Source: Romanomermis culicivorax (lineage: Eukaryota > Nematoda > Enoplea > Mermithida > Mermithidae). Taken from it: a stretch of 64,000 nucleotides of DNA. The notes under the pieces were generated by a model that worked only from the letters and a program-made list of their open reading frames with translations, had not been told where the DNA came from and searched no databases. Position numbers and translations under genes: made by a program. Location of the stretch: positions 1,177,634 through 1,241,633 of the forward strand of contig CAWUHX010000076.1 of assembly GCA_963922205.1 (NCBI GenBank), read 5' to 3'. Below, piece by piece: positions 9,257-58,242 of the stretch. Each line of letters begins with the position of its first letter. Positions within the stretch are counted from its first letter, which is position 1.

Positions 9257-9884
9257 TGTAAGGTTTGTCAATTTTTAGGTCAATGGTAAATACAGGTTAC
9301 TGTAGCTGAATAACCTGCAGATCGGACTAATTACTGAAAACGTTCTTGAGTTATTCTATTTTCTTCAGAGATGTCAATGAAAACGTCAAAGGATGGATGG
9401 CAACGGCGATGATTAGGAAAACACCAAGGTAATTTAAAAGGAAAATCTTAGTCTCGCAACGAAATTATGTTTCTTCCAGCTTCCAATAGACGCAAAGGTG
9501 GATGGAAAGAACGACGTTTTATCCAACGACCCTACGACCATGGTGAAGAGCAGAAAAGAAAGCAGGTAAGCCAAATTTATTAATAAAGTAGTGAAGTGAT
9601 TTTTACATACAAAACAAGCGTTTATATATAAAGAAAAAGACATAAAAAAAGACGTAAAAACTAAGTATTGACGTCATAATGTCACATAATAGTAGATCAT
9701 AATCTTAATAAGCGTAGTCGTATAAAAGAGTTCCATGACGTAAGGCGAAGAATCTTGGCACAATGTCTACAGTAGGATCGGATAACGTAGGTTTGCCTGG
9801 TGTGTGTGTGATTGAGAGAGCATCGCCGTTTACTGTAGGTTACTCAACTGACATTATTATCGATTGGTTTATAGCGCTCCCACA
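9257..9884 (+). mobile_element. Solo LTR, family A (same family as 13851-24753), TSD CTAC
   Basis: The sequence starts TGTAAGG, ends GCTCCCACA and is flanked by CTAC on both sides (9253-9256, 9885-9888). It aligns along its length with the 619-bp LTRs at 13851-14469 and 24135-24753 but is clearly more diverged, so it is an older insertion of the same family reduced to a solo LTR. It lies inside the long-TIR element and is younger than it. Confidence 0.85.
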
Positions 9885-9943
9885 CTACCCCGAGAGGATG
9901 AAAGACTGTGCCTGCCTGGGCCAGCTACCATAAATTTAATTTC

Positions 9944-13503: not shown

Positions 13504-13850
13504 TGTAACAACCAGTTTGAGAAACACTTTACTTGATCCAAAGGATAATGGTGCGACGGACAATTGGGACGGGGGGCACGAGTATAATGGTGGTCGGCTA
13601 AACGCGGACTCGACGATCGCTTGCTCATCGATATAAAATACAAAACTATTGCTTGCAAATAACACAACTCAGTTTAACTGGTTTCGAAAAATCTCGCTTT
13701 TATGGAGAATGCGTTTGCAAAATAAAACTAAAACCGCCACTTCTGATTAAATCATGCTTTGCTTCTTTTTAAATACAACTTCTGTGGCCACTCCTTTGAC
13801 ATTGCGGGAGGTCTTGTTTCCGTCGATCTTCTTCCACCAATCGCTGCCTC
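13504..13850 (+). mobile_element. Solo LTR, family B (copy 2), left part
   Basis: The sequence starts TGTAAC and is preceded by ACTG (13500-13503). The same LTR resumes after the nested retroelement at 24758 and ends at 25246 in GTTACA followed by ACTG (25247-25250). The interrupted LTR thus has a perfect 4-bp TSD. The last four bases here (CCTC, 13847-13850) are the target duplicated by the nested element. Confidence 0.8.
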
Positions 13851-14469
13851 TGTAAGGTTTGTCAATTTTTAGGTCAATGGAAAATACAGGTTACTGTAGC
13901 TGAATAACCTGCAGATCGGACTGAATACTAAAACGTTCTTAATTTATTCTTTCTTCTTCAGAATCGTCAACGAAAACGTCAAAGGATGGGCGGCAACGGC
14001 GACGATTTAGGAAAACGCCAAAGTAATTAAAAGGAAAATCTTAGTCTCGAAAGGAAAATATATTTCTTCCAGCTTCCAATAGTCGCAAAAGCCGGACGGA
14101 ACAATCGACGTTTTTCCAGCGACCCTACGACGATGGTAAAGAGCAGAGAAAGCAGTCAAGCCGAATTTATTGATAAAATGTTGAAGTGAAGTGAAGTGAT
14201 TTTAACATACAAAACAAGCGTTTATATATAAATAAAAAGACATAAAAACTAAGCATTGACGTCATAGTTTCACATAATCTTAGATTATAATCTTAATAAG
14301 CATAGTCGTACGAAAATAAAAAAAGTTGGATTGCGTAATCGAAGAGTCTTGACACGATGTCTGCAGCAAGATTGGATAACGTAGGTTCACCTGGTGTGTG
14401 TGTGGTAGTGAGGGCGTCACCGTTTACTGTAGGTTTCTTAATTATTGATTGATTTAGAGCGCTCTCACA
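13851..14469 (-). repeat. 3' LTR of the retroelement
   Basis: 619 bp, starting TGTAAGG and ending CTCTCACA on the + strand. It is identical to 24135-24753 except at four positions seen by eye. A TATATATA stretch inside is a possible TATA element. It sits downstream of pol on the minus strand. Confidence 0.95.
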
Positions 14470-14478
14470 TTCTTCCGG
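14470..14478 (-). other. Candidate polypurine tract
   Basis: Next to the 3' LTR the minus strand reads CCGGAAGAA, a short purine run in the position expected for plus-strand priming. It is short for a PPT, so support is positional only. Confidence 0.35.
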
Positions 14479-14816
14479 CGCTGATGAAAAGGCTGCCCCC
14501 AGCCTCGTTGGGCAAGATTTGGACGGCGAATCGGCGGGGGAATCGGGGGCTAAATCGAGGGCGGATTGTTCGGGTAAGTGTTTTTATGATGATGAGTAAA
14601 AATTTCTCTCCTGTCGTTTTCTCCAATCCTCAGATTTTCTCGTTATAATTTTCTTCGCTTTTTTTTTGTCTTCCATTTTCTCCAATTTTACGTTCGGGTT
14701 TTTCTTTATGATTTTTCCTGTTCTGTTTTATAACTTTCCCATTTCGCATAAATTTTAAATTTTACGAATCTGTGAATAACCAAAAATTAAGACGGTGTTT
14801 TCAGTTGTATTCCTTT

Positions 14817-15780
14817 TCATATATATGATGCAAAATGGACAAAAATCGAGGAAAATTCAACGAAAAAGATGACGGATACGACGAAATTGGCGACGATTTG
14901 ATGACGGGGCGACAAAAATTTGGAACAAAGCGACAACGACGAATTAATGGACGATAACAACGGTTTTGGGACGACAATTTGGGGACGAGGGCGACGAGCG
15001 ATGCGGCTCTCGTGAGTATATTGTAGAATTTTGACCATTAGGGCATCACTTTTGTTTGGGTAATAACCGGGGGTCACTTCGTAATTGGATTCGTAAATAA
15101 ATGCGTCCTTGGGCGTCATTTCGGTATGATACGGCGGCATATAGCAGGCAATGAAAGCGGCTATCGATTCCGTAAATGGCTCCCGGGGATAAATTGTAGA
15201 TTGAAATTGGGTTTGCGATGAAATGATTTTGGGCCCCTCGAGGTTGATTTTATCCGCAGATGATGTTGAGGGAACTTGGGAGGCAATCGTAGGGCAACCG
15301 CGGGAGTCGGTGCGACTTTGATTAAGCTATTATTAATTGAATCGGGAATATTCAACAATGGAGGCAATTTACCTTTGATGTTAGCTACCATTAAACTGGA
15401 GACGTTCAACCGTGCATTTTGGGTCGACGAGAATATAACTGATTGCAAGAAAGATTCAGGCGTTGAATTGATCAAATAGTGTTCATTCGTTGATACACGG
15501 GCATGAGGAGGAATCAGTGGGACATTACCTCCTGAGGCATTGCTCATTGATGGTGGCCGTTTTGGTTTGAAAATATTTGGCATTCTGGTTGTTATTTGGA
15601 CGAATTCTCGATTCTCTTCGGCAACAAATGGGGTGCTTGTTGCAAAGCATCACCTAATCGAGAAGTTTTTGAATGTTTTTGACCGGCGATCAATTTTTCT
15701 ATATGTTGTGTAGATTCGTGGGGTACGGGAGCGCAATTTCGCTTAAATTCTTCGTATAACGTTGGGTTCTTTAGATGCAA
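14817..15780 (-). other. Region 3' of pol with short ORFs of unknown role
   Basis: Between the pol stop and the 3' LTR there are about 1.5 kb. On the minus strand lie open frames of 62 codons (15780-15592), 140 codons (15583-15161) and 107 codons (15140-14817) in three different phases. They are Pro/Ser/Asn/Lys-rich, have no domain I recognise and no membrane segment except a hydrophobic end in the last one. They could be exons or frameshifted remains of one accessory gene, since this is where an env or accessory gene normally sits, or non-coding. No start or splice site decides it. Confidence 0.35.
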
Positions 15781-15972
15781 AAATTAGTTAATAACAAAGT
15801 ATAAAAATAACAATTTACCGAAAAAGCGTATATGAAAAATACTTTGATAAAAGAATATAAAAATGTTTAAGCGGCGGAGTACACAACTGAATAAAAGGAT
15901 AAAAATGAGCCTTCTCAATAAATAATATACGTTATATACAAGTATTTATCTATTTTTCCTCTTTTTCTTTCT

Positions 15973-18900
15973 TCACATGGACAAACATGTAGATAAGACT
16001 TCTGGAGACTGGTCTGATGGTACAATCGAAGTCTGAATCATGGACAAATGGTCGTCTGTTTTTTTCTTCTTCAACATATTGAAATGTATTTTTTCGTGCG
16101 GGCGGCTCGGATTTTCTTTCAATTGCAATAGATAAGTCGGATGCTTCTTTTCAATAATGACGTATGGCCCTGTCCAGGGAAAAGTAAATTTAGGTGAGTG
16201 TTTGGGCTTCACCACTGGACTATATTTAAAAACTTCTTCTCCTACTGCAAATTCTTCTCCATGTTCTTTTTTATCGTATGCAATTTTCTGAGCGTTCTGT
16301 GCAATTTTTATATTTTCTTTGGCAGATTGCCAAGCGTCGGACAAAAGACGTTGGATGTTGTCGCCGTAATCATCAACATCAATTCGATAAAAAGCCGGCG
16401 AGAAATGAAGAGCGGCGTCAATCGGCAAATTTGGATGGCGGCCAAAAAGAAGAAAAAACGGTGAGTACTTTGTTGACTTTTGTGTGGCCGTGTTATATGC
16501 AAAACACGCGTAGGGCAGATAAGAATCCCAATCATTGTGTTTTTTATTGATGTACATCGAGATAATTGTAGCCAACGTTTTATTGAATCTCTCCACTAGT
16601 CCATCTGTTTGTGGGTGGTAGGGACTCGTGTTTATTTTTCTCGTTGCACATATTTCACAAATGCGTAACATTAGATCAGATAAGAAATTCGCTCCTCTAT
16701 CTGAAAGTAATGTTAGTGGTGCGCCAAAACGTAGTACTATTTCCGTCATAAAAGCTTGGGCAACTTTTTCTGTCGTAGTTTCTGGTAGAGCTACTGCCGT
16801 CACATATTTCGTTAAATATTCGCTGAATACAATGACGTATTTATTTCCATTTTCGCTTATAGGCAAAGGACCTAAAATGTCCATAGCCACTCTGTCAAAT
16901 GGACCTGTGACTGGTATAGGCATAAGAGCGGCGCGATTTCTTTTTGTGGATGTTTTTCTCATACTGCAACTGATACAATTTAAACAATGTTCTCGTACGT
17001 CACAGTATACTGTAGGCCAATGGTAACGTAAGCGAATTTTTGCCAATGTTTTCGTAAAACCAAAGTGTCCAGAAAAAACGTCATCATGGCAAGCTTCTAA
17101 AATTTCTTCTTTCTTCGAAACTGGAACTTCTAATTTCAATTCGTTTTCGTCTGCATCGCCCAAATAATATAGAATTTCGTCTTTTATCGTAAATTGGGAT
17201 GCTAGTGAAACAATTTTCTTGGCTTGCTTAAGATCTTCAGGCAGGTAGTTAGACTGTAAATAAGCTAATAGTTGACTACAAAATTGATCACTTCTTCGTG
17301 CTTTACGAAAGTCGTTCATATTACTCGCGTTGAACTCGTTTTCTTCCTTTTCTGTGACTATAGTTCGAGTTTTCTCGGAAGTAGTTCTTTCTATAGTTGG
17401 AAGTTCTTCAAAATTCGCGTCTTCTTGAATCAGAAATAGGTTATCATGCGTTTTCGCTCGTGTAGTTTGAGTTTCATCTAGGCTAGTTCTTGCTATAGTC
17501 GATGTTTTCTCGGAACCTGCTTCTGCTATAACGGAAATTGAGTCTTTTGGCCTATTTCTACAGGTTTGTGAGCGGGTAATCGCGTTGATGTGAAATTTTA
17601 CGCCTTTCTTGTCGTTTTCTTCACATACTGGATTTCTTGAAAGAGCGTCGGCATTTTTGTCGACTTTTCCGGCGCGATGTTTGATGTTAAGTTCTTGAAA
17701 TTCTTGCAATGCTAGTCCCCATCTAGCTATACGACCAGAAGGGTTTGGTTTTGAAAAAACGCTCTGTAAGGCTGAATGATCCGTGAAAACAGTGACGCGC
17801 TGCTGATACAAATAGTGACGAAAATATTTTACTGCCCAAACTACGGCTAAAGCTTCCTGTTCTGTAATTGCATAATTTTTCTCCGCTTTCATCAAACTTC
17901 TGCTGGCATACGCGATAGGTTTTTCTCCATCTTCTGCTTTCTGAGATAGAACAGCACCTAATCCTTCATTAGAAGCGTCTGTATATAAGATAAAAGGTGC
18001 ATGAAAATTCGGATGAATCAAAAGTGGCGCAGTCGTTAATTTTTCTTTCAACGCGTCAAAAGCTTGTTGGCAGGCGTTCGTCCATTCATATTTCTGAGCT
18101 TTCTTTAATAGAAAATGTAAGGGATAGGCAATTTTCGCGAAATCTTGTATAAAACGTCTATAATAACTTGCTAAGCCCAAAAAGCTGCGTAATTGATCAA
18201 TATTCATTGGTGGTGTAAAGTTCTTCACGCTGCTAACTTTGTTTTCATCTGGTTTTATTCCTTGCGCTGAAATTTCATGTCCTAAGTAAGCAATTTTCGA
18301 TTTTAGAAAATGACATTTTTCCAGGTGAAGTTTTAAACCGGCGGCCTGCAAACGTTGAAAGACTTCGTCCAGCCGCGATTGGTGTTCGTCAAACGTTTGG
18401 CCGAAGATCAAAACATCGTCGAGATAAACAAGACAGGTCGACCACTGGAGCCCGCTCAAAACGAGGTCCATTAGTCGTTGAAAAGTCGCAGGGGCGTTGC
18501 AAAGACCAAAAGGGACAACGTCGAATTGGTAAAGACCATTGTAGATAATAAAGGCTGTTTTCTCTTTATCCTTTTGAGCAACTGGTATCTGCCAATAGCC
18601 CCAAGCTTGATCTAAAGTGGAGAATAGAGTAGCTCCTTGAACAGCATCAAAAATATCGTCAATTCTAGGTAATGGATAACTATCCTTTTTGGTAACAGCA
18701 TTCAGTTTCCTATAATCGACACAGAAACGAAATCCTCCCGTCTTCTTAGGCACTAAGACAACTGGGCTGGCCCATGGACTTTGGGATGGAGTGATAACTC
18801 CTTTGTCCAACATTTTCTGAACTTCTTCATTTATTTGTTCTTTCTGTTTATAAGGCGCTCGATACGGGATTTGTCGAATGGGGACATTGTCGCCGGTTTC

Positions 18901-19449
18901 AATTCGATGTTCGACCAAAGTGGTTCGTCCAAGATCGGTGTCGGTGGCGAACAAGGTCGAAAAGCGGGCCAGGAGACTGAAAAATTGGCGACGTTGGAGG
19001 TCAGTCAGGTGAGCTTCTGTTATATCACTCTGAAGTTCAAGATTTGCTAACAAAATCTCGGCTTTTTCTTCTTCATTCTTTTCGCAAAAATCTTGAGATA
19101 AACAAACTTTTTGATGGCAGGATGTTGGTTGATCAGAATACAAATTCTGATAGGCTCGAACTTTTCCAATTTTGATTCCTTGATAAAGGGTAATAGGGCT
19201 TTCCGTAGTGTTGAGAATGCTGACCGGAATAAGTCCATTGTCGGGTTTGACTAAACTAGAGGCAACTTGTAGGTGAAAATGGAGTACAAATTTTGACAAA
19301 GGTTCAAAAATCAACGAATTCAATCGGGTGTAAGGCATCTCTACCTGGGCATCCACAAAATTAATAGTTCGGGGTGGAATGACTACTGTCTCGGCCAGGA
19401 CCACTATTCCTCGGGTGGTGTCGGGTAGGAAAATTTTTGGATTCTTCAT
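15973..19449 (-). CDS. pol: Retroelement Pol: reverse transcriptase, RNase H, integrase
   Basis: The 1158-residue frame opens with the tail of the protease-linker region and then has an RT with the catalytic box YLDD ('VYLDDVLIFG') and 'PFGLCNAPATFQRLMD'. RNase H follows ('LYTDASNEGLGAVLSQ', 'ITEQEALAVVWAVKYFRHYL', 'FTDHSAL'). The integrase has an HHCC zinc module, then D...'LLSDRGANF'...'GLVERFNKTL' for the DDE triad. The order RT-RH-IN is that of Ty3/gypsy elements and retroviruses. There is no chromodomain at the end. The frame is the same as the upstream protease frame, from which it is separated only by a TAG at 19498-19500, with open sequence on both sides. The ATG at 19449 need not be a true start. 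Confidence 0.93.
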   Translation of the reverse strand: MKNPKIFLPDTTRGIVVLAETVVIPPRTINFVDAQVEMPYTRLNSLIFEPLSKFVLHFHLQVASSLVKPDNGLIPVSILNTTESPITLYQGIKIGKVRAYQNLYSDQPTSCHQKVCLSQDFCEKNEEEKAEILLANLELQSDITEAHLTDLQRRQFFSLLARFSTLFATDTDLGRTTLVEHRIETGDNVPIRQIPYRAPYKQKEQINEEVQKMLDKGVITPSQSPWASPVVLVPKKTGGFRFCVDYRKLNAVTKKDSYPLPRIDDIFDAVQGATLFSTLDQAWGYWQIPVAQKDKEKTAFIIYNGLYQFDVVPFGLCNAPATFQRLMDLVLSGLQWSTCLVYLDDVLIFGQTFDEHQSRLDEVFQRLQAAGLKLHLEKCHFLKSKIAYLGHEISAQGIKPDENKVSSVKNFTPPMNIDQLRSFLGLASYYRRFIQDFAKIAYPLHFLLKKAQKYEWTNACQQAFDALKEKLTTAPLLIHPNFHAPFILYTDASNEGLGAVLSQKAEDGEKPIAYASRSLMKAEKNYAITEQEALAVVWAVKYFRHYLYQQRVTVFTDHSALQSVFSKPNPSGRIARWGLALQEFQELNIKHRAGKVDKNADALSRNPVCEENDKKGVKFHINAITRSQTCRNRPKDSISVIAEAGSEKTSTIARTSLDETQTTRAKTHDNLFLIQEDANFEELPTIERTTSEKTRTIVTEKEENEFNASNMNDFRKARRSDQFCSQLLAYLQSNYLPEDLKQAKKIVSLASQFTIKDEILYYLGDADENELKLEVPVSKKEEILEACHDDVFSGHFGFTKTLAKIRLRYHWPTVYCDVREHCLNCISCSMRKTSTKRNRAALMPIPVTGPFDRVAMDILGPLPISENGNKYVIVFSEYLTKYVTAVALPETTTEKVAQAFMTEIVLRFGAPLTLLSDRGANFLSDLMLRICEICATRKINTSPYHPQTDGLVERFNKTLATIISMYINKKHNDWDSYLPYACFAYNTATQKSTKYSPFFLLFGRHPNLPIDAALHFSPAFYRIDVDDYGDNIQRLLSDAWQSAKENIKIAQNAQKIAYDKKEHGEEFAVGEEVFKYSPVVKPKHSPKFTFPWTGPYVIIEKKHPTYLLQLKENPSRPHEKIHFNMLKKKKTDDHLSMIQTSIVPSDQSPEVLSTCLSM

Positions 19450-19497
19450 AGGTACTGTGATTGAACCAAAATCGATACGGGCGGCTTTCCAATGTAA

Positions 19498-21552
19498 CTA
19501 GGTTTTTGCGAATCGTCGTAAGAAATCGGTTCCCAATAGTAAATCATAGGTGGAATTCTTGACCACATGTACTCGAAGAAATTCGGGCGGTGACGACAAA
19601 TTTTGCTCTACTGTAAGCGAGATTCTAACCCAACAAGAAGCCGTAACTTCTGCAGTTTGACAATTAAAAACCTTGTAACTTTTGATCATCGGGGGGAGTA
19701 TTTGAAATCCTCTTTTTATCGCTAAGTTGTAATCAATAAGGGAGATATCTGAACCACTGTCGACTAATGTAGTTATGGGTTCTTCTACGTTGTCATTCAA
19801 CCATACATCAATGGTGGGGCATCGATCTTGAGTCGGTTGGGTGCTGAGTCTTATACTGCAATTCGAAGTCGAAGATTCGTCTTTTGATGAAGTTTTGCGA
19901 CTTAGCCAAGGCGAAAAAGCTTTCTTCAACATGGTAGAATAAGCTACTTCAGATACTGTGGGATCTGCATGTTCGTTTCGCGTCTGTTCTTCATTTCCTC
20001 TTTCCGTTTCTTGCAAATCGGAAAATCGAACAATTGGTTCACGATCATCTTTTCGGCGGCCAAAACATTTCCCAATCCTTGCTTTAAGGTAATGACGAAA
20101 AACTAAATATCCTATCAAGAGTAAAATGATTAGGACTGCTAGGACAACGAGCATATTTAAAATGAGTTGTAGGGGGCCAGAAATCAAATAATCCATAGTA
20201 GTGACCAAATTCTTCACGCCTGTAGTACTGATATGTTCCAACGAGTTGGCGGCTCCTTCCGTATATTCTGCTACCATCTTCCCTGTACCAGCCAAAGTCT
20301 GATACACCACAGTCAGATCCAATGATAGTTCTGCTGTATATCGTGTGAGTCGGTTCAAAGCGCTCTCAAGGATCGAAATTTTGGAAAAATAGCTTCTCAT
20401 AAGGCCAAAAGTGTGTAAAACGCCAGCTTGTTGATCATGAAAATAGGAAGGGGTATTGAAAGTTTGCAATTTAGTTCTGCCTTGCCACTGGATACCGTAA
20501 GGGATCGTTGCAACGTGTACTGGGCCAGTAGATGTTCTCCATCCAGTTCCTGTTTCATGATAGATACCAACCACATGGTGATTGCAATCTACGACAGGCG
20601 ATGTTCCAATCACATCCTTCGTTCCGGGAACCACAAAAAGTGTGTGATTTTGGAATGAAAGTGGCAGATAGGCGTAGCAGGTTTGATTAACTTGATAATC
20701 CCAAAATATATGATCTGGTACGATTCTTTCACATTCCCAAACCATGAGAGCTTGACTGGCAAAGGAAGCGATAATATCATTTCGCATGAGTAAGGCTCTG
20801 GCTCCTAGAGTCGGATCGAGTTTCAAAAGTTGCCAAATCATCACTAAACGTTGTTTGGAAGAATGACATAATTCGGTCCAAATAGTTTGGAAAATTCGAC
20901 TTTCTTGCTCGATCATTTTGTCGTATAGAAACTGAAATTTCGAATTCATAGGATCTTTTTCGAGTGATCCAGGATTGATATTTGATGTGTCTCGATCGGC
21001 CAAGAGTTGATGAACATCTTCTTCGAACTGCAGAATAGGTCCTTGCTCAGTGGAATAAGCGTTTTGTAAATGACACGTAGAAATTGTTGCAGAGAGCTGA
21101 AAAGCTCCTTGAACTTCTTCCACTATCACATGATCTTGTAGGATGTGTCCTGTGAAATTTCCTACTAGAGCCAATGGACAATAATTTTCGAAGGTGGTGG
21201 CATTCCAAATGATCGTTCCTCCAGCGTTCAAACATTGTCCAGCAACGGGAGGGCAACCACCAGTGTCTCCAAGATCACTAATAGTTACTTTGTGATCAAC
21301 AGCTGCTATCGTCCCAACTTCCATGAGTAAATTCTGAACTGATCGACAAGTATCTTTGCAGCACCACTTGAATTCTACTTGCAACGTCTGATTCGTGGTC
21401 CAAATTCCAGGTTGAATTTCTGCTAAGTTGCGTCCCATATAGCTTTTATCAGACCAGACTTGTCTGCATAAACCTGGAGTAACAATGTTCTGCAAAGTGG
21501 TATCAGATACAATTCCTCGCGATCCAAAAACTCCTGTGTTCGTACAAACGGT
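19498..21552 (-). CDS. Env-like membrane glycoprotein joined to retroviral aspartic protease
   Basis: The frame is open from just after the gag stop (21553) to a TAG at 19498. The reader should not assume an ATG: the first good candidate codon at 21495 is TTG. From that codon, residues 1 to about 440 look like an ectodomain, with many cysteines (WCCKDTC), several N-x-S/T sites and a late helical stretch. A strong membrane helix follows (about 442-466), then a basic cytoplasmic tail. A retropepsin follows at about 570-665 with active site LVDSGSD (D near 579) and 'YDLLLGTDFLRRF' near the end. A putative signal segment lies in the last 80 residues of the gag frame. The ectodomain family was not identified. 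Unlike usual retroviruses the glycoprotein precedes protease and RT. Confidence 0.8.
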   Translation of the reverse strand, partial: TVCTNTGVFGSRGIVSDTTLQNIVTPGLCRQVWSDKSYMGRNLAEIQPGIWTTNQTLQVEFKWCCKDTCRSVQNLLMEVGTIAAVDHKVTISDLGDTGGCPPVAGQCLNAGGTIIWNATTFENYCPLALVGNFTGHILQDHVIVEEVQGAFQLSATISTCHLQNAYSTEQGPILQFEEDVHQLLADRDTSNINPGSLEKDPMNSKFQFLYDKMIEQESRIFQTIWTELCHSSKQRLVMIWQLLKLDPTLGARALLMRNDIIASFASQALMVWECERIVPDHIFWDYQVNQTCYAYLPLSFQNHTLFVVPGTKDVIGTSPVVDCNHHVVGIYHETGTGWRTSTGPVHVATIPYGIQWQGRTKLQTFNTPSYFHDQQAGVLHTFGLMRSYFSKISILESALNRLTRYTAELSLDLTVVYQTLAGTGKMVAEYTEGAANSLEHISTTGVKNLVTTMDYLISGPLQLILNMLVVLAVLIILLLIGYLVFRHYLKARIGKCFGRRKDDREPIVRFSDLQETERGNEEQTRNEHADPTVSEVAYSTMLKKAFSPWLSRKTSSKDESSTSNCSIRLSTQPTQDRCPTIDVWLNDNVEEPITTLVDSGSDISLIDYNLAIKRGFQILPPMIKSYKVFNCQTAEVTASCWVRISLTVEQNLSSPPEFLRVHVVKNSTYDLLLGTDFLRRFAKT

Positions 21553-23967
21553 TCAGTTTCGTAAAACGCAGCGAACGGCTATAATCTGATTCAAATGTCC
21601 ATTCGTGGACCAAATATGCAACTTTATTTCGTGTTTTTCAGCTTTGATCAGTGGCGGAGGGCGACATTGCGTCGTTTTCGGGACCATCAAGGCACGACCG
21701 CCTCGTGAAGCGCCACATTGGTAGAAAGGTTCGCCGAAGGAATAGCCCACAACAAAGAAAAGTAACAACACGGCGGCGAACAAAAAATAAGAAGAGGTAA
21801 GTGAGACGAAATTTCTAAGAATTTGTTGGAAATGGTGTTGAGGAACTCTTCTTCTGGCACATTTTCTGCTTCTTTGAACTGCTTCTGCTCTAAATTGAAA
21901 TTGTAAATCTTCTGGCCTTCCTGGATCCGTTCTTGAGTCAGTTTGAGCTGACTGATGTCGCATGGGATCTTCTGGGGAGGTGACTTCGGGCCTCTGAACA
22001 ATCCATGGTATCGACTTATTGATCCATCCTTCTGTCGTAAATTCCAGGGGTCCTTGTCTAGCGATCACTCTTCGTCGTGACTGGCTTACAAATTCGTGCA
22101 TATGCATAAAATTCAAAATATCACATAAATTACAAATACTGGCTGCAGCAGGCCCATCAAAAATAAAATAAACTTCACCCATGGGGCGGCTTCCAGAGGG
22201 ACGGTGGGAATTATGACCTCCAGTCTGAGCCGTATTCATGAAAACATTAACTGATTCGACTTGCCCAGAATTTCCAAATTGCTGACGGCGCCGTCTATCT
22301 TCATAATAGTCGAAATCAGAAGTTTCATCAAAATCACTTTCTAAATAACCATTTTCTAAATGTTCTGGGACTTCATAATAATTGCCAGTATACCCATGGG
22401 AGGCAATAGTGGGGTTATCGCTAATTTCTTCAGATCCTGTCCCACTACTCACCAATATGGAGTGTCCGGTTCCAAAATAAAATTCATTATATCGGGCCAT
22501 AAAAACATGTGCCTGAGGCCTCACATTGGAATTTCCATACAGATCGAAATCATCGCAATTCCAGGGATCGGACTGTTCTGCGATGGTGTCAGGATTAAAT
22601 TCTGACACGTTGGGCCCATTAGCCTCGGCAAGACAAAGCTGACTATTGACTCCTCGGGTTCCAGAAAGGGCATCTCCTGGACTCCTAGGGTTCGAAACGC
22701 CTCGGGTTGGCATCTGTACTCGGGGCGGTCCACCACGCCACGTGCTACGCGGGGAACTCGAAAATCTGGAATCTTGATTTCGTTCGAGCATGGGGCAAGT
22801 AGAAGAATAATGCCCACTTCTACCACATCTATAACAAGAAACGGTACCATCTGAGGACCTTCCTGATGAGCGGCCGCAGTTAAAGTTGGTATTTATCGCG
22901 CGATTTGGGCGACCTCCCATCCTGTTGGGCTCTTGGGGACCGTTCGATTGAATCTGAAAACCTCTCGCGTTGTTCCTAGGCCAAGAACGATATTCTTGCC
23001 GTGGCCACCTGTTGAAATTAGTATTTTGATTCGTCCTTTGTTCATATCTTCTTTCCAAATTCGAATTTCCGGCCAAGTTGACAGCACTCAACTGTTGCAC
23101 CAAATTGGTCAGCTGACTGACGGAATTCGCCAAAACTTGAAACGAAGGGTTATTTTCACCGTGATATTGTTTTTCTCGTAATTCTTGTTTTTCAGCTTCA
23201 GCAACGGCGGCCTCAAACGAATCCGGCTCAGCGTTTTGGACCCAACGACGAATATCAGGTATTAGTCGATTTATAAAATGATTTTTAACAATTATATCAG
23301 GTTCTCCAGCTCCATTCCAGGTTGGAAAAGCTCGTTTGGCTAGACAACGGACATCAGCGGCGAAAACGGCGACGGGTTCTCCCAACGATTGCATTCTGGC
23401 GACTAGTTGCTCGTACTTGACGTCGATTTGGCGATTATCGGGAAACTTGGCTAGGTAAGCACCAGTCCATGCATCCCAATCAGCCAAAGGAGGTTGTCTC
23501 GCTTCTAATTCTCCAAAATAATTGAGCGCGGCGCCTCGTAAATAATTTGCTAGCAGGGCCGTTTTTCTACTTAGGGCAGTAGCACCTGCCAAAATCGCTA
23601 ATCTTGAAAATTTTCTTTCCCATTCTGACCAATTTAAATCGTTCGGGTCGCCAGCAAATGGGGATAGATCGCCTAGACCGGTGGGAATCGTCGGGCGGGT
23701 TTCATACAGTTCTGTAACTCGAGCCACTGTATTTCGTAGCAAATCGTTGATTTGTTCCATGGCCATTTCGTCTCTATTTTCAACTAAAACTTGATCTTCT
23801 TGATTCGCCAAAACTTGTAAATTTTCTTCTTCTAAATTTTCTTCTTGTGGTGCACGTTCAAATAATGGTCGTCCACTTCTAGTTCGTCGGTGTTCTGTAG
23901 GATTCTGGCGAGCGCGGGTGATTACGTTATCAAAAATCGAAAAAAGTGAATTTTCTTCTTCAGCCAT
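21553..23967 (-). CDS. gag: Gag-like polyprotein with CCHC zinc knuckle and C-terminal membrane/signal segment
   Basis: 804 residues from ATG at 23967 to TGA at 21553-21555. Residues about 95-265 resemble the retrotransposon gag/capsid fold ('FAGDPNDLNWSEWERKFSRL', 'KTALLANYLRGAALNYF', an Arg/Phe-rich capsid C-terminal part). A nucleocapsid CCHC knuckle is at 378-391 (CYRCGRSGHYSSTC). Residues about 440-700 are acidic to polar and unassigned. A hydrophobic segment (about 725-742) is followed by a short Cys-containing stretch, which looks like a signal peptide and the start of the glycoprotein, not normal gag. The TGA stop is followed by open sequence in the same frame, so the stop falls within the glycoprotein unit. 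Confidence 0.88.
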   Translation of the reverse strand: MAEEENSLFSIFDNVITRARQNPTEHRRTRSGRPLFERAPQEENLEEENLQVLANQEDQVLVENRDEMAMEQINDLLRNTVARVTELYETRPTIPTGLGDLSPFAGDPNDLNWSEWERKFSRLAILAGATALSRKTALLANYLRGAALNYFGELEARQPPLADWDAWTGAYLAKFPDNRQIDVKYEQLVARMQSLGEPVAVFAADVRCLAKRAFPTWNGAGEPDIIVKNHFINRLIPDIRRWVQNAEPDSFEAAVAEAEKQELREKQYHGENNPSFQVLANSVSQLTNLVQQLSAVNLAGNSNLERRYEQRTNQNTNFNRWPRQEYRSWPRNNARGFQIQSNGPQEPNRMGGRPNRAINTNFNCGRSSGRSSDGTVSCYRCGRSGHYSSTCPMLERNQDSRFSSSPRSTWRGGPPRVQMPTRGVSNPRSPGDALSGTRGVNSQLCLAEANGPNVSEFNPDTIAEQSDPWNCDDFDLYGNSNVRPQAHVFMARYNEFYFGTGHSILVSSGTGSEEISDNPTIASHGYTGNYYEVPEHLENGYLESDFDETSDFDYYEDRRRRQQFGNSGQVESVNVFMNTAQTGGHNSHRPSGSRPMGEVYFIFDGPAAASICNLCDILNFMHMHEFVSQSRRRVIARQGPLEFTTEGWINKSIPWIVQRPEVTSPEDPMRHQSAQTDSRTDPGRPEDLQFQFRAEAVQRSRKCARRRVPQHHFQQILRNFVSLTSSYFLFAAVLLLFFVVGYSFGEPFYQCGASRGGRALMVPKTTQCRPPPLIKAEKHEIKLHIWSTNGHLNQIIAVRCVLRN

Positions 23968-24114
23968 TCTTCAAGAAAAAATCGTCAAGCTCGAAAAATT
24001 CGAAAAACGCCAGGTAAATCGCCAAATAAAATCGTCAGCCTTCGTGCTTCTTTATTTCTTCTTTATTTTCAGGCTTCTTCAACGTCAATTCGATCCGAAA
24101 ATTGCAGTCGACGG

Positions 24115-24132
24115 TCCTGCCACGAATCGCCA
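24115..24132 (-). other. Primer-binding site
   Basis: Two bases after the 5' LTR the minus strand reads TGGCGATTCGTGGCAGGA, complementary to a tRNA 3' end terminating in CGCCA. This is the expected place and form for tRNA priming of minus-strand DNA. The G discriminator base before CCA is compatible with a serine tRNA, but the tRNA was not identified. Confidence 0.7.
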
Positions 24133-24134
24133 CT

Positions 24135-24753
24135 TGTAAGGTTTGTCAATTTTTAGGTCAATGGAAAATACAGGTTACTGTAGCTGAATAACCTGCAGAT
24201 CGGACTGAATACTAAAACGTTCTTAATTTATTCTTTCTTCTTCAGAATCGTCAACGAAAACGTCAAAGGATGGGCGGCAACGGCGACGATTTAGGAAAAC
24301 GCCAAAGTAATTAAAAGGAAAATCTTAGTCTCGAAACGAAAATATATTTCTTCCAGCTTCCAATAGTCGCAAAAGCCGGACGGAACAATCGACGTTTTTC
24401 CAGCGACCCTACGACGATGGTAAAGAGCAGAGAAAGCAGTCAAGCCGAATTTATTGATAAAATGTTGAAGTGAAGTGAAGTGATTTTAACATACAAAACA
24501 AGCGTTTATATATAAATAAAAAGACATAAAAACTAAGCATTGACGTCATAGTTTCACATAATCTTAGATTATAATCTTAATAAGCGTAGTCGTACGAAAA
24601 TAAAAAAAGTTGGATTGCGTAATCGAAGAGTCTTGACACGATGTCTGCAGCAAGATTGGATAACGTAGGTTCGCCTGGTGTGTGTGTGGTAGTGAGGGCG
24701 TCGCCGTTTACTGTAGGTTTCTTAATTATTGATTGATTTAGAGCGCTCTCACA
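24135..24753 (-). repeat. 5' LTR of the retroelement
   Basis: 619 bp, TG...CA ends. It is the upstream LTR because gag lies immediately to its left on the minus strand and the PBS adjoins it. It differs from the 3' LTR at four positions by eye. Confidence 0.95.
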
Positions 24754-24757
24754 CCTC

Positions 24758-49920: not shown

Positions 49921-51319
49921 TTAAATACTATAATCTGTAAAGGTTTCACGATTTTTATCAATCATTACGAGAGAGTCAAATTCTGCGTATATAAGTGCTT
50001 CAATACCGCCATCTGGTATATCCTCTCCAAAATTCATCTGTAAACTAGTGGTTCCTTCACGTACGAGTTCCCAAAAATTACCATCCATACCGCAAGGAGT
50101 CAAATCAAAAACAAAAATCGTGTTATGCGTTGTAAAAGAATTTCGAGTAATTTCATTACCCTTGTTATCTGTACCGATTCCTACACCCTCAAATAATTGT
50201 ACAAAAGTGCGCAAATATTTGTTTTCTTTAAAATTTAGCATATATGGTGTTGTAGGTAAGGTTGTAGTACCACTTGTTATTTTAATCTCGTTTAATCCGA
50301 AATGCTTAAAATTGAAGGGGCTTTGATTATAATCACCCCTAGCAGCCGAACCATCAACGAGCGCCACAACGAGACGACGAGGTAAAGGACCTGTGAACAA
50401 TGAGTTCAGAGGAGCTGAGCGACGACTAGTTGTTATGTATAGACTTGTAACATGACATCGACGAATAGGGTATTTTGCAGCTGTATTTTGTAACATGGAT
50501 TCAATAGCTAGATTGATATTATCCGCAACTTCAACTTTTTTAATAAATAGAGACATGCTTTTAACTTCGATTTTATAAGCTTCGTTGTCAGTAGATATAA
50601 ATTTTTGCAAGCAAAAATCATCTCTATGTCTGTATAAATCAATTTTCAAAGTACATTGATTCAATAGAAAACGTTCTTGCATAAATAGATCGGCGTGTAT
50701 AGGAGCCATTAATTCAACAACTGCACTGTTTTTGAACATCTGAACTCTTTCCAAAGCACCCTTGTTTTTCTTTATATCGAGAACATCGCCATTTTCAAAA
50801 GCATAACCAGCAGCTGCAACATGTGTCGACTTAGCATCACGACCATAGTTCAATTCCGTTTCCAAATAAGATCTGTAAGCGTATCTATCCCCACTGAAAT
50901 GTTAAAATGTTAAAATTAAAAAAAGGTAAACATACATTTAATTATAAAACTTACCTGTCAGATATTAATTTTCCATTTAAGTACATCTTGATCTGTTTAA
51001 AAAATGTTTTGCCGATCAAATTAATTGGTGCTACAACATTTCCAGTAAGGTTATTGTTGGCGTCTGCTGTTAAAGTGCAAGCAGCGCCATTAGCTTTCGT
51101 AATTCGAATAGTAAAATATATAAAATTTTTTGATAAGTCCAACATATATGAATCAGGTGAAATAACAAACTCGTAAGGTCCTTCATTAGTACAAGGATTT
51201 TGTAACTGAATTTCAGACCAAAAACTTCTACGAATAGCAACTTGTGTTGGAGGTACGGTAAATAAATCTAACTCCGTTTTACTACTAGGAGACGATGCAG
51301 CATCAATAAATTTACTCAT
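49921..51319 (-). CDS. Polinton major capsid protein (double jelly-roll), two exons
   Basis: Exon 1 51319-50955, 61-bp intron (GT at 50954, AG at 50894), exon 2 50893-49921; phase 2 joins to a Ser codon, giving 445 residues. The N-terminus ('SKFIDAASSPSSKTELDLF') and the later 'SEIQLQNP', 'YPIRR', 'RSAPLNSLFTGPLPRRLVVA', 'SPFNFKHFGLNEIKI', 'DGNFWELVREGTTSLQ' and C-terminal 'ALIYAEFDSLVMID' blocks are the pattern of Polinton capsid proteins, which form the hexameric shell of the particle. The start codon overlaps the stop of the upstream gene (ATGA). A broken homologue lies at 45743-46685. Confidence 0.88.
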
Positions 51320-51852
51320 TTTGAATAGATATCCTTGAAACCGACTACTCTACGTGGAGTCTTTTTTAAGAATGAGGAACGTCGTTTCAGGTGTTTACGT
51401 TTATGTTGTTTTTGATGTTGATGTTGTTGACGCTGACCATCATTTAACTTTTTATTGCTTTTTATATGTATCGTAGAATTTATATGTTTACGCTTCCCTA
51501 AACCTTTTCCTTTATGAATGCGCTCGCCCGTTTCGTGTAATAAGCTACCAGCTGCGTTTCGTCCATGCTCAGCAACACTTTCTTTAAAAGAACGACCTTC
51601 TACAACATCACCTGCAATTTTGGAACCTGCAGCAAGTGCATGCTTTCCTGCAGATTTTAACAAAGGCATAGCTAGACGCCACAAACTCTTAAAAAAATTA
51701 CCAACTCCAGCTCCTTGATGTCTATAATAATACGGGTATGCTGCTCGAAAACCTTCTAAACTACCACCTAATTGAAATTGATTATCTTGAATACTATGTT
51801 GATAAATTTTGATCCAGTAATCAACGGTTTCAGGAATAAATACGGTATGCAT
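51316..51852 (-). CDS. Basic pX-like virion core protein
   Basis: 178 residues. Near the N-terminus it has a 'GGSLEGFRAAYPYYYRHQGA' block, then 'GVGNFFKSLWRLAMPLLKSAG', small-residue-rich helices with 'HALAAGSKIAGDVVEG', and a very basic Lys/Arg/His/Gln tail. This resembles the adenovirus pX-like protein found in Polintons and adintoviruses, thought to be a membrane-active or DNA-associated core protein released by the viral protease. Gly-rich sites such as GKGLG are possible cleavage sites. It ends in an ATGA overlap with the capsid gene. Assignment is by pattern and position. Confidence 0.7.
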   Translation of the reverse strand: MHTVFIPETVDYWIKIYQHSIQDNQFQLGGSLEGFRAAYPYYYRHQGAGVGNFFKSLWRLAMPLLKSAGKHALAAGSKIAGDVVEGRSFKESVAEHGRNAAGSLLHETGERIHKGKGLGKRKHINSTIHIKSNKKLNDGQRQQHQHQKQHKRKHLKRRSSFLKKTPRRVVGFKDIYSK

Positions 51853-51986
51853 ATTTTGCTTTGAAAATTAAAAGGAACAACAACTAAATGAATTAATTAA
51901 TTAAGAGCGTTTGCGAAAATTCAACCTGACGACAACGTGTCCAAATGCAAATGAATGAATGAGTAAATAAAAATTTGATACTATGC

Positions 51987-52904
51987 TTATAGGAATAAAG
52001 GAGTACGTCGCCGAAAATGTAATTTAACTATAACATTCCCAAACTGAAAGGGTATAAGCTCATTCATACTGTTTTTTATATTAATCTCGAGTACTGTAAT
52101 TTCTTTCAATTGAATTGGTATATAGTGAGGTGTTTCATATAAACGACTCACATTATCTTTGTATTTTCCCTGAACATTTACTATACGTAAAAGCGGCGCT
52201 AAAGTATTTCCAACAATCTGATTTTCAATAATATTACAGTAAACATAAAAATTCTGTAAATCATTCAAATTTGGTGGTTGAATACCTAACATGTATAAAT
52301 GATTAGTTCCAGGCTCGGCAAGAAAAACAGCTTTGGATGGTGGAATATGTGTGTTAGAATTTTTTGGAGGTTTCTCTCCAACAGTATATAAGTTAATATT
52401 CACAGCTCTATTTAAAAAATCATCAGCAGTTGCATAGGCCTCAGTATTGGTAGAGCTAAATCCGAGAAGCTCCATTAACCGTTTGCTTATATCGATTTTA
52501 CGTAATATTGTACCACTTTTTATTTTCAAATTAACTAATCCTCTACTATGTTCATCGTATGAAAACATGATTTCCATGTTAGTTCCGGCAATAGCTGCTC
52601 CAATTTTTGCATTCAACTCTTCAATTAATTCAGATATGGTAAAGTAATGTTTTTCAAAAACTATTACTTTAATTTTTTTGACCTTATTTCCGACACCATC
52701 CGTAATTAACGTTATTACATTATCTCCACCATGATTGGTAAATGTAGCCCAACTATAGGGGTATATTATTTCACTTAGTCCTACCTCCCAGCTTCCATCT
52801 AGTTTTAAACGGTAAGGTAGATGGGCTGAAAAATCAGAGGGTTTGTTTCCATTTTTGCTATTACTAGGTAATGTGATATAAAATTGATCTTCAAAGGTTG
52901 TCAT
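51987..52904 (-). CDS. Polinton minor capsid (penton) protein
   Basis: 305 residues starting 'TTFEDQFYITLPSNSKNG' and 'SAHLPYRLKLDGSWEVGLSE', a hallmark N-terminus of Polinton penton proteins (single jelly-roll, at the capsid vertices). The C-terminus ends 'PFQFGNVIVKLHFRRR', again typical. Its start lies 14 bases inside the end of the preceding membrane-protein gene. Length is lower than in many elements, with no sign of truncation. Confidence 0.82.
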   Translation of the reverse strand: MTTFEDQFYITLPSNSKNGNKPSDFSAHLPYRLKLDGSWEVGLSEIIYPYSWATFTNHGGDNVITLITDGVGNKVKKIKVIVFEKHYFTISELIEELNAKIGAAIAGTNMEIMFSYDEHSRGLVNLKIKSGTILRKIDISKRLMELLGFSSTNTEAYATADDFLNRAVNINLYTVGEKPPKNSNTHIPPSKAVFLAEPGTNHLYMLGIQPPNLNDLQNFYVYCNIIENQIVGNTLAPLLRIVNVQGKYKDNVSRLYETPHYIPIQLKEITVLEINIKNSMNELIPFQFGNVIVKLHFRRRTPLFL

Positions 52905-53199
52905 TATTTATAATGTTGTTTGCTGTTGCTATAGGTACGGTCTTCAATGAATTAGATGACTGTAATACGGTCGGTACGGGGCTAGGTAATAAATATCCTA
53001 TACAAGCGCACAAAAGACCAACCCACAATTGTGTATTATTATTGTAGAGAGATAAATTTATTATAGCTGTAATGACTACAATGTATATTAGTATGACCTG
53101 ACTGAAGAAAACCACTTCGTTTCGAGGTAGACGTTTTCCAAAAAACTCCCAAACGCTAATGCGAGACGTTTCTGAATGCGTACTATTACTACTATCCAT
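52891..53199 (-). CDS. Conserved Polinton two-helix membrane protein
   Basis: 102 residues. After a Ser/Thr-rich start comes 'FGKRLPRNEVVFFSQVILIY', a hydrophobic helix (about 33-52), a short loop with LSLYNNNTQLW, and a second helix (about 58-75) ending GYLLPSP. Proteins with RLPR...EVVFF.Q and a GYLLPSP end recur between the penton and protease genes of many Polintons. Their role is unknown; a part in membrane interaction during assembly is inferred from the helices. Confidence 0.72.
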   Translation of the reverse strand: MDSSNSTHSETSRISVWEFFGKRLPRNEVVFFSQVILIYIVVITAIINLSLYNNNTQLWVGLLCACIGYLLPSPVPTVLQSSNSLKTVPIATANNIINNDNL

Positions 53200-53369
53200 T
53201 TCAAAATAAAAAATTTTTATTTAACAACTAAACACTCAGTTATAAATTTATAAAAAGGCGGAGCTACTAAAATAACCAATAAAATTATACAAAAATATAA
53301 AGGAGGCGGAGCTATCAAAGTGAAGTAAAATTTATATATATATAAATACATATAGAAGGAGTTAACTTT

Positions 53370-53861
53370 TTACAAACGTGTACATAATTTATTTCGCAAG
53401 TGACCTTTTACAGAAAATTTACAATGAAAAAACTTACAAATCAATTTATCATTATAAACAAAATTTGTGTTACTGAAACTTTTAAACATTTTATACATAG
53501 GAACATGTCGCACTTTATAATACAAAAAATATAAAGTATATATACCACAAACCCTACTATTAAAATTTTGTAAATGTTTCTTATTTGTATATATTATTAA
53601 AGCATTTTTGTTAATATAATTTATAAAAGCAGGAATAACTGGTGGTAAGCCATAAGAATCAAAATAATATACAGAGTTAGCATTATCAAAATACATAGCT
53701 ATCCAATGACTTCCTTTTTGAAAAGATGTATCGGTGTTTGCAATTAAAGCCGCGGGTCTTTTAACTATCTTCGGTAGAGTATCGCAAGCAAAAACTCCTA
53801 AAAAATTTTGTGATAATAGCTCATCTTGTTGAGCATAATATGTCAATTCAAAGTTGTTCAT
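53370..53861 (-). CDS. Adenovirus-type cysteine protease (maturation protease)
   Basis: The frame opens at 53879; I prefer the second methionine at 53861 ([11 protein letters not shown]), which leaves a 14-base overlap with the integrase end. Counted from 53879: His58 in [10 protein letters not shown], Asp74 in YYFDSYG, Gln104 and Cys111 in [12 protein letters not shown] form the expected His-Asp-Gln-Cys set of adenain-like C5 proteases. Polinton copies are thought to cut capsid and core proteins. Basic C-terminal tail. All key residues are present. Confidence 0.88.
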
Positions 53862-54960
53862 CGTAATCGTCGTCGTCATCGTCGTTTTGTATATCCTTTT
53901 CTAAAATCCAACTGTTGAATTTTTCAGGATAACCCCACCACTTCACAAGTACTCTATTCTGACCATCTGGTAATCGTTTAGTCTTCAAAACCTTTTCAAT
54001 TTTGTATTCTTTGATATTAGGATTAAAATCGATTTTCTGTAGTTCTTTTTCATAAAAACGTCCTTCTATATCTTCGCCTTCCAGATCTTGAATTGTATAA
54101 AGTATATGATTTCGGGTCTTCACAATATGTTTTACTTTGAAAACTTCTTCACTCCATTGAGGTAAATAACCTTTGTCAAATACACCTCTATGTTTACTAA
54201 TTCGCACGTAATCTCCTATATCAATCTTAGACTTTCTAGTGTATAATCTTTCAGGGTAGAGTCTTTGCCATATAATTTTTTCGTTAGAATAATCTACATT
54301 AATAGGTTTTTCCTTAATAGATCTATGAACAGAGTGATTGTAGTTGGAAACAACTGCGGGTAAAATATCAATCCATTTATAAGTGGTAAACTCTGTAAAA
54401 TATTTAAATAATTTAGTTTTTAAAGTTCTATTAAACCGTTCCACTATTGAACATTTAATGTCTTCGTTTTGAGAAGTAAAAAAATGTATATCGTTAGTTT
54501 TCAATAATTTTTGGAAATCTTTGTTGACAAATTCTTTTCCTTTATCGCTGCGCACTCTCCAAGGGATTCGACCTCTTTTTAAAATATTTTGAAAAGCATC
54601 GCAAACATTCTTTGAGTGTTTTGATTTTAAGGGTTCAACCCATGCGTATTTACTTAATACATCTATACATGTAAGCATAAATTTGTATCCATCGTTAAAA
54701 TCTGCTAAAGAAGACATATCTGCCAAATCAATTTCCCATTGTTGATCCATAGCTGTAACATAAATACGATTACGTGAAAATTTTTTGTTGACTTGTTTAT
54801 GTAGAGTATAACTATCTTGTTTTGAAAGCCAATCTTTAACATTTTTACGTGTAATTGTTTTACGGTGCTTTCTAGCTTCAGCATATAATTTTTCAATACT
54901 AGAAAAAGCTGAGGGATTTCCGTGTAAATTTTTGTATAATTTCGAAAGTAAGGTGTTCAT
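53848..54960 (-). CDS. Polinton integrase with C-terminal chromodomain
   Basis: The open frame runs from 55095, but the first 45 codons overlap the upstream gene and lack integrase features; [10 protein letters not shown] at 54960 is the likely start (370 residues). The DDE core is Asp78 (WEIDLADM), Asp139 (RSDKGKEF) and Glu174 ([11 protein letters not shown]). The C-terminal half holds an SH3-like part and a chromodomain at about 318-358 ([26 protein letters not shown]), followed by an acidic D-rich end. It would join the element's DNA ends to the target; the chromodomain may steer it to chromatin marks. The start follows the previous stop by only 4 bases. Confidence 0.92.
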
Positions 54961-54964
54961 CGCT

Positions 54965-55822
54965 CTAGTACAAAGGAGTATACCGTCTAAGTGCTCTAGC
55001 TTTGCGCCGTATCTTCTTTTCTGTCGAGTTTCCTTTATTAAAGAATGAATCGTCTTTGATATCTTCCTCGGCACCACTTGAAAATAAATCAACACCTTTC
55101 ACAAGTGGTTTATTCAACCGCTTGACACTACTAACTGCATGATCATCTGATTCTTCCGGAGGTGTATGGTAGGAGAGTTTCCGAGGTAAAGTGAATAACA
55201 TTTTACGTAATGGGTTTCCTATAGCCTCTAATGGTACATTATATTTTTTCAAAGCATTAACAAACTCATCTACTCCAAGCGTTTGCGTAATTTTTGAACG
55301 TTTACGAGACAAATCATGTAATAAATCAATAATATGTGATCCTTCAATTAATTTTCCATCAATTAATACTTCACCTTGCTTATTAACATTTATACTAGGG
55401 TTACGTCGCACATGCTCCAATAATAAGGATGCCGAGCGTTTAAACTGTTTAGGAATACCGCTAAGTAACTTTTCATCGTTCAACCAATTTTTTTCTTTTT
55501 GTTTCAAATCGTCACTATCCTTCTCATCTTCTTCGTTATCAATAACTTTTTGTTTTAAAATCACTGTAGTAGGTTGAGCCTTTTCATGTTCAAAAGTTAA
55601 ATATTGTGAAAATAGTTGCGAGTACATTTTGTATTGTTCTTCAGGTGTTAACGTATTATCTTTCAAAATGCGCTCTAGCTCGTTACGATACATGTCAACT
55701 TGCTTAGCTATACCTGTCTTTTCATTTGAACTCGTCGTCGTCGAAGAAGAAGAAACCTGAGAGTTATTCAGTTTATTCAGAACCTCCTGAGGTATAAGAG
55801 CAAATTTATTAGCAAATTTCAT
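54965..55822 (-). CDS. Conserved Polinton protein of unknown role (285 aa)
   Basis: From MKFANKFALIPQE at 55822 (the frame opens 8 codons earlier, but this ATG begins 1 base after the upstream stop). It has a Ser-rich stretch, a predicted helical part with MYRNELERIL, acidic EDEKDSDD, and a conserved-looking core with 'SASLLLEHVRRNPSINVNKQ', 'GSHIIDLLHDLSRKRSK' and 'YNVPLEAIGNP'. The block order is familiar from other animal Polintons, where its function is not known. The tail is basic (KKIRRKARALRRY). Only 4 bases separate it from the integrase start. Confidence 0.65.
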   Translation of the reverse strand: MKFANKFALIPQEVLNKLNNSQVSSSSTTTSSNEKTGIAKQVDMYRNELERILKDNTLTPEEQYKMYSQLFSQYLTFEHEKAQPTTVILKQKVIDNEEDEKDSDDLKQKEKNWLNDEKLLSGIPKQFKRSASLLLEHVRRNPSINVNKQGEVLIDGKLIEGSHIIDLLHDLSRKRSKITQTLGVDEFVNALKKYNVPLEAIGNPLRKMLFTLPRKLSYHTPPEESDDHAVSSVKRLNKPLVKGVDLFSSGAEEDIKDDSFFNKGNSTEKKIRRKARALRRYTPLY

Positions 55823-55823
55823 T

Positions 55824-56177: not shown

Positions 56178-56259
56178 ACAAAACAGACCGTACAGTACAA
56201 AAAAATTTTACAATAATGACCAAATGATGAGTAAACATTGAAATATTTATTGTATTACA

Positions 56260-56721: not shown

Positions 56722-56781
56722 CGTAATTGTCACAAAACAAACGAATTATAGAAAAACGACCAACCTCTTCAAAATTCTCGA

Positions 56782-57216: not shown

Positions 57217-57274
57217 ATCGCTAAAATAATAGGATCCGACTAACCTGTATAAAGTTTTTTGTAAAAATGATGAA

Positions 57275-57961: not shown

Positions 57962-58242
57962 CTTTTTACTTGAACAATTTTTAAAATGATTTTTTATTAT
58001 TATTTAAAACAAAATGTTACATAATTATCAAAATTACAATATAAAACAGTGCACATGTAAAACATAAAGATAGATGATTATATAAAATAGAATAGCATTA
58101 CTGTATGCAAAATATACGCGCAATGTATGTATGAAATTATATATAACAAGCAAATACGTAAGCAATTACATAAGCAATCAAAATATAGCTAATTAAAACA
58201 TACAAGCTGTAATGAATGAATGAATGAATGTAAGCAAAACTT

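Follow-up and report, generated by a model that had tools for sequence, protein, structure and literature searches.

Where in a retroelement may an envelope gene reside? In errantiviruses and insect endogenous retroviruses (ERVs) env is placed after pol, and to our knowledge the order Gag-Pro-Pol-Env is generally taken to be invariant in retroviruses and in env-bearing long terminal repeat (LTR) elements. The question is raised by a stretch of 64,000 nucleotides, here called the window, from the mermithid nematode Romanomermis culicivorax (GenBank assembly GCA_963922205.1, contig CAWUHX010000076.1, positions 1,177,634 to 1,241,633 of the forward strand), the minus strand of which carries a Ty3/gypsy-type LTR element spanning 24753 to 13851. 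A first-pass annotation, made from the letters alone, had proposed that an envelope-like glycoprotein lies between gag and the aspartic protease (PR) of this element and in the same reading frame; an envelope-type glycoprotein was found in that place in the window, in 36 of 39 other copies, and in diverged families. Judged from sequence comparison, it is probable that the element belongs to a Ty3/gypsy-type family of a mermithid nematode that captured a class III glycoprotein of the Monjiviricetes/herpesvirus glycoprotein B (gB) type, in frame between Gag and protease, and would make it as part of a polyprotein.

Organization of the Element

The order of the element is gag, signal segment, glycoprotein, membrane helix, tail, protease, and reverse transcriptase (RT)-RNase H-integrase, all in a single frame. 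Its LTRs, short target-site duplication, and Pol order of PR-RT-RNase H-integrase are those of the Ty3/gypsy elements (Metaviridae). The two 619-bp LTRs are identical at 615 of 619 positions without gaps, and an LTR alignment extending beyond the LTR ends shows 98.3% identity. Two open reading frames (ORFs) precede Pol. ORF1 includes capsid-like and CCHC regions with a hydrophobic, signal-like segment at its end, followed by approximately 60 amino acids of ectodomain and a TGA codon. The features are as follows:

24754..24757, minus strand: target-site duplication GAGG before the 5' LTR, read from the flanks
24135..24753, minus strand: 5' LTR, 619 bp, TG...CA ends, from LTR-LTR comparison
21556..23970, minus strand: ORF1, comprising Gag, linker, signal-like segment, and the first ~60 amino acids of the glycoprotein ectodomain
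22792..22839, minus strand: CCHC zinc knuckle (nucleocapsid), Pfam zf-CCHC, E 4e-4
21730..21807, minus strand: hydrophobic signal-like segment opening the glycoprotein, from hydrophobicity and conservation
21553..21555, minus strand: in-frame TGA within the ectodomain, seen in the window copy only
19501..21552, minus strand: ORF2, comprising ectodomain, membrane helix, tail, and protease
20188..21552, minus strand: main part of the glycoprotein ectodomain, Monjiviricetes fusion/gB-like, from PF24664, PF00606, gB matches in the Protein Data Bank (PDB), and selection
20080..20190, minus strand: transmembrane helix, approximately amino acids 455-491 of ORF2, from hydrophobicity and conservation
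19810..20079, minus strand: cytoplasmic tail or linker to the protease, from frame, position, and selection
19501..19809, minus strand: aspartic protease with VDSGS motif and LLGTDFL near its end, from motif, position, and weak profile matches
19498..19500, minus strand: in-frame TAG at the protease/RT boundary, seen in the window copy only
15976..19497, minus strand: Pol (RT, RNase H, integrase), from Pfam
14470..15972, minus strand: region from pol to the 3' LTR, the usual place of env, with no long ORF
13851..14469, minus strand: 3' LTR, from LTR-LTR comparison
13847..13850, minus strand: target-site duplication GAGG after the 3' LTR, read from the flanks

Pol matches RVT_1 (E 8e-36), RT_RNaseH_2 (3e-40), Integrase_H2C2 (4e-18), and rve (8e-9), and its best named matches in a similarity search, made without a tree, are K02A2.6-like polyproteins, which we take to be Ty3/gypsy-type. 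By sequence, Pol thus appears most similar to that of gypsy-type and not BEL-Pao elements. The protease matches PF13975 (E 0.003, below the curated cut-off) and the chain of Ty3 Gag-Pol (E 0.36). The longest ORFs wholly inside the region after pol are of 169 and 162 amino acids, and no Pfam match was found in three ORFs tested there.

One Reading Frame from Gag to Pol

The coding span 15976-23970 (2665 codons) contains two stops in one frame, compared with 134-150 in each of the other five. Of 78 windows running from upstream of gag as far as the RT start, a codon model favored this shared frame in 74, the four exceptions all falling within the Gly/Arg/Asn-rich nucleocapsid (NC) region; because ORF2 and Pol served as the training set, the gag windows are the sole independent test of the model. 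Stop counts and codon model therefore agree that gag, glycoprotein, and protease share one frame, as the annotation had stated. The two frames that it described are separated by a TGA within the ectodomain, and protease and RT are parted by a TAG.

Both stops appear to be peculiar to the window copy. At the position of the TGA a sense codon stands in 38 of 39 other copies. The exception, L047, shows a different stop there, probably through misalignment of the codon, since similarity is lowest in this copy (83%) and blastn finds no match in it to this stretch. The TAG position is a sense codon in all 38 of the other copies aligned there, with one gap. Two annotated proteins, taken as their gene models stand, span the TGA position without a stop: P0005 from R. 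culicivorax, which is similar on both sides of it, and P0001, in which similarity is weaker. Given the four LTR differences, the coding part of the window copy is expected to have gained ~26 substitutions, ~1.3 of them nonsense changes, with a probability of two or more nonsense changes of 0.37, and its two stops thus need no special cause. Programmed read-through at the TGA and TAG was considered and rejected on the same figures, neither stop having been seen in another copy. Since these stops were seen in no other copy, the layout of the family is one Gag-Env-Pro-Pol frame, and the window copy is one slightly decayed member.

An overlapping frame of 125 amino acids (21690-22064, minus strand) lies just before and over the signal segment and encodes a charged, helix-like sequence. 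As a candidate for the true start of env it was rejected, having no Pfam match and scoring lower than the main frame, by small margins.

Identity of the Glycoprotein

The annotation had found no family for the ectodomain. A Pfam profile search assigned ORF2 to PF24664, Monjiviricetes_fusion (E 9.3e-16; 57.4 bits vs. a cut-off of 27), the solved relatives of the domain being herpesvirus gB. A profile built from the window's protein and the five relatives given below, six glycoprotein sequences in all, matched 38 distinct PDB sequences at E<=1, of which 37 are named glycoprotein B and one ORF8, and with a seventh sequence the best match reached E 1.2e-6; Gag, in a PDB sequence search, matched no Gag. 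The insertion by chance of a non-viral domain is excluded by these matches, which are of viral type, and with a sequence match to the gB core in hand the ectodomain is probably a class III fusogen.

Other expected parts of a membrane glycoprotein are present, with adjustments to the earlier description. The hydrophobic segment said to end the gag frame lies at approximately amino acids 720-747 of ORF1, and only 5 of 2000 shuffled sequences reach its value. The membrane helix is as strong as had been claimed (0 of 2000 shuffles), although it occupies windows from amino acid 455 to 491 of ORF2 and not 442-466. Within the ORF2 part the ectodomain is Cys-rich (13 Cys), as described, but only moderately rich in N-glycosylation sequons (5).

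Protein searches with the glycoprotein, in which the best 7999 candidates by shared words were scored, returned five relatives. Three are fragments annotated from R. culicivorax (59-73% identity) and two come from short contigs of metagenomes or metagenome-assembled genomes (~40%). Pattern matches in scans of viral contigs (58 with env and one with Pol) and of genome contigs (148 with env) yielded none that was confirmed, and nothing was found in scans of PHROGs or, for both ORFs, of NCBIfam.

Conservation among Copies and Families

The genome searched is a 359-Mb assembly of 595 contigs, in which the window lies in contig C76. A piece of env DNA found 117 candidate copies, of which 40, including that of the window, were scored, the others being 93-98% identical; the family thus has at least 40 copies. 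The 39 other copies were read in part, from the capsid (CA) part to the start of RT, with six test pieces per copy. All six pieces were present, in order and on one strand, in 36 of 39, the exceptions being L040, without the RT piece, and L045 and L047, without the gag side. The CA piece was complete or nearly so in 28 of the 36. In the window and in these 36 copies env lies between CCHC and PR, unlike the order of retroviruses and errantiviruses, in which env follows pol. The signal-like segment and membrane helix were both kept in 38 of 38 testable copies.

Selection was estimated as the ratio of nonsynonymous to synonymous substitution (dN/dS) from copies aligned over >80% of a segment, with stop codons and gapped codons excluded; the values are family averages over related copies, include neutral decay, and were bootstrapped over codons only. 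The main ectodomain gave 0.12 (0.09-0.15; 39 copies), close to Gag CA (0.15; 29 copies), PR (0.08; 38 copies), and the start of RT (0.14; 38 copies), with higher values for the signal and N-terminal ectodomain (0.35; 38 copies) and for the helix and tail (0.27; 39 copies). The glycoprotein is under purifying selection, as are the protease and RT.

The same order is common to diverged families, the furthest of which has 31% identity for env and protease. Related copies with gag-env-PR-RT, which the annotation's proposal implied, therefore exist both among the 39 and beyond them. A genome search with P0005 gave 206 matches; among those listed, many are at 47-62% identity and the best reach 92%, which falls short of 100% and by itself points to Romanomermis or a close mermithid as the host. 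For seven copies among the matches listed the open frame extends over 2500 codons or more and is stop-free in every listed matched piece, and an eighth of such length has a TGA inside one piece; these lengths read through stops inside matches, as the window's own value shows, and a further listed length of 24354 codons, also with a TGA, is implausible. Pieces of five copies were read further. In L052/L060 (env 78%, CA 69%, PR 83%, and RT 71% identity) the series CA-NC-linker-signal-env-tail-PR-RT lies in one frame, and this 78%-identical family keeps all 13 ectodomain Cys. L049/L061 have linker-signal-env-tail-PR-RT (env 59%, PR 47-57%) in a broken frame. CA-NC-linker and then PR-RT were read in L063/L062, and PR-RT after env in L065, env being placed in both cases by the P0005 search. 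L064 has env (31%), PR (31%), and RT (25%) in that order, with the frame broken, while L048 and L051 have linker-signal-env, the latter with NC upstream. One diverged family scores 57 bits against PF24664.

Two further P0005-like env copies, C57:319076-320125 and C2:1087144-1088190, have open frames of only ~435 codons among the matches listed. One of the two has a TGA inside the match, and in the C2 copy PR and RT follow in broken frames.

Outside this genome, 8000 candidates were scored for similarity to Pol; 7826 reached E<=1e-60, and 120 of these relatives were listed. PF24664 was present in the listed domains of none of the 120, and none gave a sequence match to env, its tail, or the linker; PR was matched in five and the first 400 amino acids of ORF1 in 18. 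This search covered only proteins of ~645-2054 amino acids, and so a fused protein of 2665 could not appear in it. In the 57 listed relatives that could be measured, the gap between zinc knuckle and protease is 34-398 amino acids (median 104), compared with ~1023 codons in the window element; 52 others have no knuckle, and in 11 the knuckle is not followed by a protease motif. A single hydrophobic segment before RT was seen in four of the 120, and a signal-plus-helix pair in none.

Expression of the Glycoprotein and Alternative Explanations

How might such a layout work? An ancestor would have captured a class III glycoprotein of the Monjiviricetes (chuvirus/bornavirus)-herpesvirus gB type, set in frame between the Gag zinc knuckle and the protease. 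Genomic RNA would be translated as one Gag-Env-Pro-Pol polyprotein, whose internal hydrophobic segment would act as a signal at the endoplasmic reticulum (ER) and open the translocon. The ectodomain would then be threaded into the lumen, with Gag before the signal and the tail, protease, and Pol after the helix remaining in the cytosol. Signal peptidase may free the start of the ectodomain while the element's protease excises itself and cleaves the tail, such that Gag, Env, and Pol would be separated at the membrane where particles bud. Synthesis at that membrane would yield as many Gag as Pol molecules if the ratio is not shifted by splicing or degradation, and the glycoprotein would serve as an envelope fusogen for cell-to-cell or germline infection. 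Whether these copies represent a lineage of gypsy-type nematode retroviruses in which Env is directed to the ER by an internal signal instead of a message of its own, with Gag and Pol reaching the same membrane already coupled to it, an arrangement persistent to 31% identity of env and protease, we judge to be an even question.

The alternative that survives best, although it is the less favored, is that Env derives from a spliced sub-genomic message, or that Gag-Pro-Pol is made by splicing out the env region as an intron, with the fused frame being a compact form of gene storage. Env messages are spliced in env-bearing insect elements (PMC12992720), and Cer1 splices its extra gene (PMC10309623). 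Candidate sites exist in the family: donor-like sites at 22526, 22454, and 22091 are kept in 37 of 37, 33 of 38, and 16 of 37 copies, respectively, and an acceptor-like site is described below. The conservation of such sites is, however, partly plain sequence similarity, shuffled sequences predict ~1.3 acceptor-like sites in the same stretch, no donor of the scanned consensus is found in 23600-24134, and one frame is common to gag through PR.

Several results weigh against a working, polyprotein-borne class III envelope. In 29 of 37 copies the acceptor-like site at 21979 is retained; an in-frame ATG follows 16 bases later, at 21963. The match of ORF2 to PF00606 (herpesvirus gB) is below its cut-off (E 3e-4; 20.7 bits vs. 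43), and an AlphaFold model of the ectodomain from six sequences reached a mean confidence (pLDDT) of 38.9, too poor to show a class III fold, because of which that fold is one we infer from sequence. All Pfam scores of the protease are below curated cut-offs. The linker between NC and env evolves almost freely, with a dN/dS of 0.73 (37 copies; bootstrap 0.54-1.03). Only three of 32 copies read end to end have no in-frame stop over the stretch read, from which it follows that most copies read are decayed. Finally, in eight of the ordered copies (L009, L010, L016, L017, L020, L024, L025, and L031) the CA piece is only 16% covered, with env, PR, and RT pieces of full length; these may form a sub-family that has lost or exchanged its capsid region and spreads with help.

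It is improbable that the glycoprotein is no longer a fusogen and has been co-opted as a membrane domain, whether to anchor Gag-Pol or for a role within the cell. An internal signal segment might also tether Gag to membranes, but the 13 of 13 ectodomain Cys kept in a diverged family, the retention of signal and helix in every testable copy, and the dN/dS of the ectodomain are as expected of a working ectodomain. Accidental nesting of an endogenous viral element (EVE) or other element in one gypsy copy, for which the EVEs of this glycoprotein in many insects and in Nematoda offer a source (PMC10084718), has a negligible probability and is rejected because several diverged families, and 36 of the 39 other copies, have this order in common, with purifying selection.

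Other Features of the Window

A single LTR-like copy at 9257-9885, ~82% identical to the LTRs of the element, is possibly a solo LTR of a related family. Beside the element, a dispersed repeat at 13610-13851, next to the 3' LTR, recurs inverted at 863-1113 with 75% identity. Farther away, 49924-58003 on the minus strand encodes an integrase with a chromodomain (53851-55098) amid unassigned ORFs and a poxvirus A32-like packaging ATPase (57278-58003, minus strand) just under the Pfam cut-off, a gene set which is presumably Polinton/Maverick-like.

Comparison with Known Systems

The sequence suggests an element that works like an env-bearing retroelement yet departs from the placement of env after pol. 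With a many-copy, selected lineage in which Env lies between Gag and protease, the order Gag-Pro-Pol-Env is not required. The layout also poses a topological question, namely how one polyprotein might cross the ER membrane twice and still give useful ratios of Gag and Pol, and because there are many copies this question is testable with existing RNA and proteome methods.

Capture of a glycoprotein by a retroelement is already known; its position between gag and protease was not found, and no element with env between gag and pol or pro was encountered, in the open-access papers searched. Anakin of mosquitoes is likewise an LTR retroelement with a captured chuvirus-type glycoprotein, but it is a BEL-Pao element, without a Ty3/gypsy Pol, and it is in the window element that the glycoprotein lies between gag and protease; envelope-like proteins of other BEL-Pao elements (Roo, Tas, and Cer-7) are described as downstream of the polyprotein (PMC7642597). 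The hookworm belpaovirus Atlas virus shares a nematode host and a single polyprotein that includes the envelope (a Gag-Pol-Env of 2828 residues), but its envelope is a phlebovirus-like Gc of class II that follows Pol at the C-terminus (PMC9094657). Cer1 of C. elegans is a nematode Ty3/gypsy element in which gag and pol have no intervening stop, and differs in that its extra gene follows pol (PMC10309623). The errantiviruses or insect ERVs gypsy and ZAM are Ty3/gypsy elements with an envelope, although one of the F type, encoded by a third ORF and expressed from a spliced message (PMC12992720). Glycoprotein EVEs of the Jingchuvirales belong to the same group as the glycoprotein described here and include two from Nematoda; Gypsy fragments flank some of those in insects, and the 2023 survey reports no clear evidence of capture by Gypsy (PMC10084718). 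The window element appears to be a Ty3/gypsy capture of this Jingchuvirales-type glycoprotein group.
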